DNA of 64,000 nucleotides. Source: Nitrospirota bacterium. Its GTDB lineage: Bacteria > Nitrospirota > Thermodesulfovibrionia > Thermodesulfovibrionales > UBA6898. How positions within the stretch are numbered: the first letter of the stretch is position 1; every line of letters begins with the position of its first letter. The notes below the pieces were generated by a model. That model did not search any database, had not been told where the DNA came from, and saw only the letters and a program-made list of their open reading frames with translations. The DNA lies in NCBI GenBank assembly GCA_004321925.1, contig SCQH01000008.1, positions 1 through 64,000 on the forward strand, written 5' to 3'. A program made the position numbers and the translations under genes. This document shows, in pieces, positions 21,644 through 23,441 of this stretch.

Positions 21644-23305
21644 TTATACCTTTAACAGGTCCATTTTTTCATTAAAGACATATTTCTCGACCGCTTCCAG
21701 CAGCGGGGCAAAGGTTGTATTATCAACTGCTGAGACCGGTATCGCATGGTATCTCTGCGACAGGTTCAGCACTTCCCGGGGGGGGATCAGGTCTGTCTTG
21801 TTGAAGACGAGGAGTCTCGGCTTATTTGCAAGGTCAAGACCCTTCAGGATCGTATCCACCGCCGTCATATGCTGTTCTGCCCGCGGACTGGAAATATCAA
21901 CGACATGCAGGAGGAGGTCTGCATCCTGCAGTTCTTCAAGGGTAGACCTGAATGCGGCAAGCAGGTCCTTCGGAAGGTCCCTGATGAACCCGACGGTGTC
22001 CGTGATGATGATCTCCCGTTCATGCGGGAACCTGAGCCGCCTGCTCGCCGTGTCAAGGGTTGCAAAGAGCTTGTCTTCAACAAAGGTTGCGCTCTTTGTC
22101 AGGGCATTCAGCAGTGTTGATTTGCCTGCGTTCGTATACCCCACTATCGAAACGATCGGGACCCTGCAGGCAATGCGCCGCGTCTTCCTCTGCCGGCGTG
22201 CCTCGCTCAATGATTTCAGCTCTTTTTCGAGAAGGGCGATCCTGTCCCGGACCCTTCTGCGGTCGACCTCAAGTTTCATCTCGCCGGGGCCCCTCCCGCC
22301 TATGCCGCCCATGAGCTTTGACATTGCCGTCCCTTTGCCGGTAAGGCGGGGCAGGCGGTATTTGAGCTGCGCGAGCTCCACCTGCACCTTGCCGTCCCTG
22401 CTGTGGGCACGCCGGGCAAAAATATCGAGGATGAGCTGGGACCGGTCAATGACCTTCAGCTCAGTCAGGTCATTGATGGACTTGATCTGCGACGGATTGA
22501 GGTCCTGGTCAAAGATCAGCATTGTGGCTCCCCTGTTCATGGCGGTGATGACAAGGTCCTTGAGCTTCCCCTCTCCGAGGAGATACTTCGGATTTATTTC
22601 TTTCGGTTTCTGTATGACCGTCTCAAGCACAGTGACATTGCTTGAGAGCGCAAGGTCTCTCAGTTCATCCATGGAATCTTCCAGCTCATAACGGGGCCCC
22701 GTCGAAACACTGACCAGGATGGCACTTTCATGTGCCGTGCGGTCGGGCTGAACGCCCTGACCCTTGGTCGTCGTAAATCCGCGCGACCTCTCAAACTCCT
22801 CTTCCAGGGAGGTAATGAACGGCCTGAAATCAAAGTCATGGTCATAAAAATCTGCCGGGGGCAGCACCTCAACACCGGTATTGAGGGCCTGAGGGATGAG
22901 ATGTGCAATATGGAGGGCTGAGGGCTGGTCCTTATTCAGACCTATGGCCGCAATGACGTCGAACCTAAGCAGGGAAAGGTCAGTTATGTCGTCCTTGTTC
23001 AGGGGGTCGTTGTTGAGATGGGTATGGATGAAACGCAGGCCCCGGAGCGCCTTTTTGCCCAGGGGATAATCATCAAGAGGCGGGAGGAACATGCCCCGGG
23101 CATCTCCGACGATAACATGGGTGATGATCCCCTTCCGCGAGGCGATGACCCCGACCTGACGGTTCAGTTCATACGAGAGAGCGGCAAGATATTTGCCGAG
23201 TTCAAGGGTGATGAGCTCGGAGTGAAGTCGCCTTCTGTATATTTTTTCGAGACTGGCCGTCTGGCTCCCCTTGAGGCCGGTCAGTTTGCCATAGAGTGTC
23301 GGTAT
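21644..23305 (-). CDS. hflX: Ribosome-associated GTPase HflX
   Basis: HflX is a GTPase that binds the 50S subunit and splits stalled ribosomes. The G motifs are present: GYTNAGKST (G1), DTVGF (G3) and NKTD (G4), preceded by the glycine-rich linker GGIGGRGPGEMKLE. Conserved N-terminal domain codons (TLYGKLTGLKGSQ..., LNRQVGVIASRKG) continue about 70 codons upstream of the first ATG at 23092. The best start is an AUA at 23305, 6 bases after a GGAGG Shine-Dalgarno; no ATG, GTG or TTG exists in frame there. This gives 553 residues, matching long HflX forms. An ATG start at 23092 (482 residues) would remove half of the N-terminal domain. Identity is certain; start is not. Confidence 0.9.
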   Translation of the reverse strand: MPTLYGKLTGLKGSQTASLEKIYRRRLHSELITLELGKYLAALSYELNRQVGVIASRKGIITHVIVGDARGMFLPPLDDYPLGKKALRGLRFIHTHLNNDPLNKDDITDLSLLRFDVIAAIGLNKDQPSALHIAHLIPQALNTGVEVLPPADFYDHDFDFRPFITSLEEEFERSRGFTTTKGQGVQPDRTAHESAILVSVSTGPRYELEDSMDELRDLALSSNVTVLETVIQKPKEINPKYLLGEGKLKDLVITAMNRGATMLIFDQDLNPSQIKSINDLTELKVIDRSQLILDIFARRAHSRDGKVQVELAQLKYRLPRLTGKGTAMSKLMGGIGGRGPGEMKLEVDRRRVRDRIALLEKELKSLSEARRQRKTRRIACRVPIVSIVGYTNAGKSTLLNALTKSATFVEDKLFATLDTASRRLRFPHEREIIITDTVGFIRDLPKDLLAAFRSTLEELQDADLLLHVVDISSPRAEQHMTAVDTILKGLDLANKPRLLVFNKTDLIPPREVLNLSQRYHAIPVSAVDNTTFAPLLEAVEKYVFNEKMDLLKV

Positions 23306-23441
23306 GAATATCCTCCGGTAAGAATTATATTCTATACCTATAGTAGCACACCCTGATTTGAAAGAAGCGGTGATGACACTGCTCGACGACCCGACCCTTG
23401 ATCATTTTCACAGAGAGTTCAGGAAGCTCAGAGAAGAGTGA

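Follow-up and report, generated by a model that had tools for sequence, protein, structure and literature searches.

The start codon of hflX in Nitrospirota: conservation of AUA, AUU and AUC and a probable tie to IF3

The window, that is, the whole stretch of 64,000 nucleotides of a Nitrospirota genome analysed here, carries on its minus strand a gene for HflX whose first in-frame ATG lies inside a conserved domain. A preliminary description of this DNA had placed the start of translation 71 codons earlier, at an AUA. The locus thus raises the questions of whether such a codon is the true start of hflX, whether it is peculiar to one genome, and what might keep it in place. The features concerned are the following.

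21644..23305, minus strand: hflX, 553 codons from AUA to stop; TIGR03156, 442 bits
23303..23305, minus strand: AUA start codon; AUH (AUA, AUU or AUC) at the aligned position in 197/235 distinct relatives
23312..23316, minus strand: Shine-Dalgarno GGAGG, 6 nt (ATATTC) before the AUA
23324..23329, minus strand: TATAAT, possible -10 box, with no good -35 found
23402..23404, minus strand: upstream in-frame stop TGA, read in the sequence
23090..23092, minus strand: first in-frame ATG (codon 72), 71 codons after the AUA and within the conserved domain
22766..23305, minus strand: N-terminal domain, residues 1 to about 180, JAB1/MPN-like predicted fold
22988..23026, minus strand: JAMM-like metal-site motif H94-T-H96 ... 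D106; H94, H96 and D106 in 156/156 rows

The product is HflX, with a TIGR03156 score of 442.3 bits against a curated cut-off of 216.75, and the HflX GTPase motifs GYTNAGKS, DTVGF and NKTD can all be read in its translation. The known HflX region begins near residue 191-195 and is preceded by about 190 residues. On the minus strand GGAGG, 6 bases and the AUA can be read directly one after the other, as had been described. Equally in agreement with that description, ATG, GTG and TTG are absent from the 32 in-frame codons between the upstream TGA and the AUA and, in fact, from the whole frame between that stop and codon 72. No GGAGG stands before the ATG at 23092, unlike before the AUA.

If the TATAAT at 23324-23329 were a -10 box, the leader would be no longer than some 15-20 nt. 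Between -48 and -18, a hexamer of the form TA[TAG]AAT occurs in 52 of 178 AUH relatives, versus 15 in shuffles, and a consensus promoter scan gave no promoter on the minus strand. With the -10-like hexamer in only 52 of the 178 relatives and no minus-strand promoter in the scan, the promoter reading is weak and was not retained.

Start codons of hflX among relatives

The gene was followed through whole genomes and a collection of genomes, and distinct hflX start regions were gathered from Nitrospirota and from a second phylum, that of a Syntrophaceae genome. Where rows were identical over 220 nt only one was counted, and the final count comprises 235 regions. Three loci without upstream room or with a partial domain (L096, L108, L216) and seven loci without the N-terminal domain (L106, L109-L113, L115) were dropped before the counts. 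An earlier set of 216 distinct rows was used for the Shine-Dalgarno, -10 hexamer, tree (215 rows), pair-identity and joint-switch counts, and 156 of its rows for the count of the metal-site motif. The start codon was read for that part of the domain-carrying genomes whose start-region sequence was in the sample.

An AUH codon occupies the aligned first codon in 197 of the 235 regions (ATA 60, ATC 64, ATT 73), which bears out the proposed AUA start, and in 7 more it lies one or two codons off that position. Canonical by rule, that is, with ATG, GTG or TTG within two codons, are 26 regions, including L316, whose ATG stands 1 nt after GGAGG and is followed by an ATA at 7 nt; the other 5 regions have neither type. 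For three of these five (L190, L192, L293), as well as for the canonical L187, the start may be ACG, another near-cognate codon and there the best one after the Shine-Dalgarno. In the locus set that also supplied the hemE and radical-SAM controls described below, the count of AUH starts was 67 of 72. Comparison with close relatives had been suggested as a check, and in the window's genus, represented by five genomes, the codon is ATA, ATA, ATT, ATC and ATA (L001, L007, L008, L009 and L039, onto the last of which the source genome's own stretch, L401 of G001, collapsed). Homologues of other lineages (eight loci of the 216-row set) carry ATG (6), GTG (1) or TTG (1) at exactly the same position. 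In this sample a non-AUG start is the rule for hflX and not the exception, and AUA, AUU and AUC are interchangeable, there being nothing special to AUA.

On a tree of the 215 N-terminal domains, built with the start codon excluded and rooted at the midpoint, parsimony requires a minimum of 51 changes among ATA, ATC and ATT (178 tips), compared with 4 that exchange one of these for ATG, or the reverse, at that codon, an imbalance in which selection on the start codon is visible. Switches between canonical and noncanonical starts number 13, versus about 24 with shuffled labels. The root state is noncanonical, and such a start is therefore ancestral within the sample by parsimony. The earlier remark that AUA starts are rare thus holds for genes in general; it does not hold for hflX. 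Furthermore, a Shine-Dalgarno motif is found upstream of 169 of the 178 AUH genes, mostly at 5-9 nt, and of only 10 of the 26 canonical ones (Fisher p about 3e-11, only indicative since the rows are related). The pattern resembles a swap, in which a weak codon that has a strong Shine-Dalgarno gives way to a strong codon whose Shine-Dalgarno is weak.

The AUH codon as translation start and the domain that follows it

AUA, AUC and AUU are exactly the codons of isoleucine, and it had therefore to be ruled out that the AUA is an internal isoleucine of an hflX that begins farther upstream or by a frameshift, a reading to which the 43 of 178 AUH genes (earlier set) with some canonical in-frame codon farther upstream lend some colour. 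Against it, the AUH codon follows immediately on a stop codon in 13 of the 197 loci, so that the AUH there is not an internal isoleucine, barring frameshift or readthrough; in 149 of the 197, and in the window itself, the frame between the upstream stop and the AUH holds no canonical codon. The Shine-Dalgarno at 5-9 nt in most relatives and the ATG, GTG or TTG of other lineages at the same position point the same way. Protein conservation, too, ends at this codon: in 377 pairs that are 70-90% identical, amino-acid identity is 0.07-0.36 over 8 upstream codons and 0.48-1.00 from codon 1, which is isoleucine in all rows by selection of rows. An internal isoleucine is, on balance, hardly credible. 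The lack of an AUG counts for the AUH start only jointly with the abutting stops and the Shine-Dalgarno.

A start at the ATG at 23092, with untranslated sequence before it, would be the choice of gene callers limited to ATG, GTG and TTG, which would pick this first canonical codon or a later one. The sequence between the two codons speaks against it. In three pairs with genus members, codons 2-71 have a dN of about 0.12-0.19 and a dS above 1, codons 72-140 being alike; by these rates codons 2-71 evolve as coding sequence under purifying selection, and the claim that the conserved domain extends 71 codons 5' of the first ATG is upheld. Residues 6, 10, 11, 23, 44, 49, 50, 57 and 59 are invariant or nearly so, and the predicted fold starts, with high confidence, at residue 4, so that a codon-72 start would cut away much of the conserved domain. 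Considering also that GGAGG stands in front of the AUA and not of this ATG, we regard it as a very unlikely start. The doubt that an AUG had been misread as AUA is of even less weight: the source genome is in 120 contigs and single-base errors do occur, but an AUH codon is found in all five genus members and in most of the two-phylum sample, in independent assemblies that include several of a single contig or of few large ones (L402, L404, L407, L410), and these codons rule out a sequencing or assembly error, whose probability is negligible. Reassignment of the AUA codon was also weighed and dismissed, since the closest relatives have AUC and AUU in its place. As far as the sequence can tell, hflX of the window starts at the AUA 6 nt past GGAGG.

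The N-terminal domain was found in 187 of 195 genomes of Nitrospirota and, in the phylum to which the Syntrophaceae genome belongs, in 191 of 247, while a search of 144 genomes from a third phylum, represented by L113, found it in none. The AlphaFold model, with a mean pLDDT of 86 over 191 residues, is confident from residue 1 to about residue 170 and falls to low values at the end. In a structure comparison the best match was Pyrococcus furiosus JAMM1 (Z 7.8, 3.3 A, 111 residues), where a Z below 8 may reflect a common arrangement; the 50 PDB entries listed are presumably JAB1/MPN-type domains, going in part by their titles. The best Foldseek E-value was 1.1e-3. When 20 members were searched with E values of up to 1 allowed, no Pfam family matched the domain and no JAB family appeared among the hits, though the profile library may lack JAB.

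H94, H96 and D106 are invariant in the 156 rows long enough for the motif count, in which position 103 is N, S, T or D and position 35 is E in 140 and D in 16. The JAMM motif is given as E ... H-S/T-H-x7-S-x2-D (PMC300881), and the spacer in HflX is one residue shorter than this x7; H94/H96 ... D106 looks like a JAMM-type metal site and is here considered a putative one. Mycobacterial HflX also joins an extra N-terminal part to the core, of 39-58 residues (PMC12493154), whereas that of the window HflX has about 190 and a JAB1/MPN-like predicted fold.

Control genes and infC

Other genes of these genomes served for comparison. The start of hemE is canonical in 32 of 32 loci, that of the radical-SAM gene adjoining hflX in 33 of 34, and in der an ATG lies 4-5 codons ahead of the first motif in all 28 loci located among 30 examined. 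In each of six short HflX loci without the domain a canonical codon is suitably placed to serve as the start, and in none of the six was an AUH codon with a five-base Shine-Dalgarno found.

Two side observations belong to these controls. The remaining radical-SAM locus (L036-L115 set) has ATA at the aligned start. In many der loci (L257-L286) a TANAAT-like hexamer lies about 10 bases before the ATG and a Shine-Dalgarno is absent, as judged by eye and uncounted; such der mRNAs look as if they were leaderless.

The infC gene is a different case. With its state called by the best Shine-Dalgarno and ties assigned to canonical (4 of 84 loci unclear, one with ATG, L236), infC has an AUH start in 29 of 30 loci from close relatives, one of which is that of the window's own genome (L254, ATA). 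Elsewhere, 28 of 29 infC loci are AUH where hflX is AUH as well, and 17 of 25 are so in genomes picked for their canonical hflX. Canonical infC was found in 6 of 23 canonical-hflX genomes versus 0 of 28 (Fisher p 0.006, an overstated value as all six lie in one clade of the hflX tree and amount to one event), and for this reason a joint switch of infC and hflX was dropped as proof. The only lineage in which infC has turned canonical also has canonical hflX, again as one event. Several members of the window's family have two infC genes; the second type (L227-L236, L238) carries AUA, AUC or AUU after a strong Shine-Dalgarno in most loci, with ATG in L236.

A proposed tie of hflX to IF3

IF3 destabilises initiation complexes on noncanonical codons and represses such starts, as for infC and sigR (PMC5472188), and infC is autoregulated through its AUU (Butler, 1987; Sacerdot, 1996, as described in PMC5472188). 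In S. aureus reporters, AUA and AUU starts yield about 10-30% of AUG (PMC13009471). HflX splits both 70S ribosomes that are vacant and 100S ribosomes in hibernation; IF3 is a hindrance to the joining of subunits and has been implicated as a factor that counteracts the formation of 100S ribosomes (PMC6060826).

The reading that we favour, and consider likely as a whole, is that hflX starts at AUA, that a weak AUH codon holds HflX low, and that this start is IF3-sensitive like that of infC. AUH codons pair imperfectly with the initiator tRNA, so that HflX output would be kept low, and the strong Shine-Dalgarno would hold it above zero. The earlier suggestion that the codon limits HflX synthesis is supported indirectly, by the near-absence of change to AUG, the trade-off between codon and Shine-Dalgarno and the published reporters (PMC13009471). 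The weak start that may keep HflX low is probably discriminated by IF3; since IF3 rejects initiation complexes on AUH, hflX translation should rise, like that of infC, whenever IF3 is lax or in short supply compared with 30S subunits. A link to IF3 had also been suggested, and it becomes more likely because infC has an AUH start in the same genomes. HflX, as the splitter, and IF3, which blocks subunit rejoining, could thereby be set by one signal, and we infer from this a joint homeostasis of the two.

The serious rival accepts the AUH start and regards it as a fixed attenuator, giving a low and constant level of HflX that would be unresponsive even to physiological changes of IF3. A set level is what the compensation between codon and Shine-Dalgarno strength fits, and many genomes with canonical hflX keep AUH infC, so that the two genes are not tightly tied. 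Nevertheless, in the bacteria that have been studied IF3 does discriminate against AUH (PMC5472188), and an AUG with a weak Shine-Dalgarno would be a simpler route to a fixed level, one that 16 of the 26 canonical genes appear to have taken, yet AUH is kept in most lineages. A fixed attenuator thus retains an appreciable probability, clearly short of an even chance.

Among known systems, infC resembles hflX in its AUH start, strong Shine-Dalgarno, deep conservation and presence in the same genomes, and IF3 acts on ribosomal subunits; it differs in that hflX does not encode IF3, so that any control would be one-way, with no feedback on its own product. The stress-related gene sigR of Streptomyces also joins a noncanonical start to a conserved strong Shine-Dalgarno; its start is GTC, in one genus, and was tested by mutation, whereas that of hflX is AUH and found in two phyla (PMC5472188). 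AUH starts are described for pcnB of E. coli (AUU) and for ccpN (AUA), cvfC1 (AUU) and citZ (AUA) of S. aureus, genes of other functions whose conservation is reported within staphylococci or S. aureus lineages (PMC13009471). Ribosome GTPase genes that would need an AUU for the full-length product are described in two isolated cases, as far as reported without phylum-wide conservation. In literature searches, with most subscription papers outside their coverage, none of the entries listed pointed to an hflX with a noncanonical start or to a JAMM-like domain on HflX. Apart from infC, only a small number of genes are to our knowledge described as having noncanonical starts, and those considered here were reported in one species or genus.

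The finding adds a second ribosome-traffic gene that keeps a noncanonical start across two phyla in which the neighbour and control genes do not, and it brings to light a conserved extra domain of HflX. It also predicts that HflX proteins of both phyla are misannotated, with N-termini too short, by callers limited to ATG, GTG and TTG, the same limitation through which sigR was misannotated (PMC5472188). A broader proposal, plausible but tentative and only slightly short of an even chance in our judgement, is that in the ancestor shared by the sampled Nitrospirota and the Desulfobacterota-type phylum hflX and infC formed a small IF3 regulon, defined by start codons alone and kept very long by selection against AUG. 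When free IF3 lags behind the supply of 30S subunits, or behind idle 70S ribosomes, both the splitter and the anti-rejoining factor would be translated more. The AUH starts of hflX offer, in this respect, a natural experiment on the purpose of IF3 discrimination, and, if the proposal is true, a common near-cognate start codon would be a regulatory element of ribosome-pool homeostasis.
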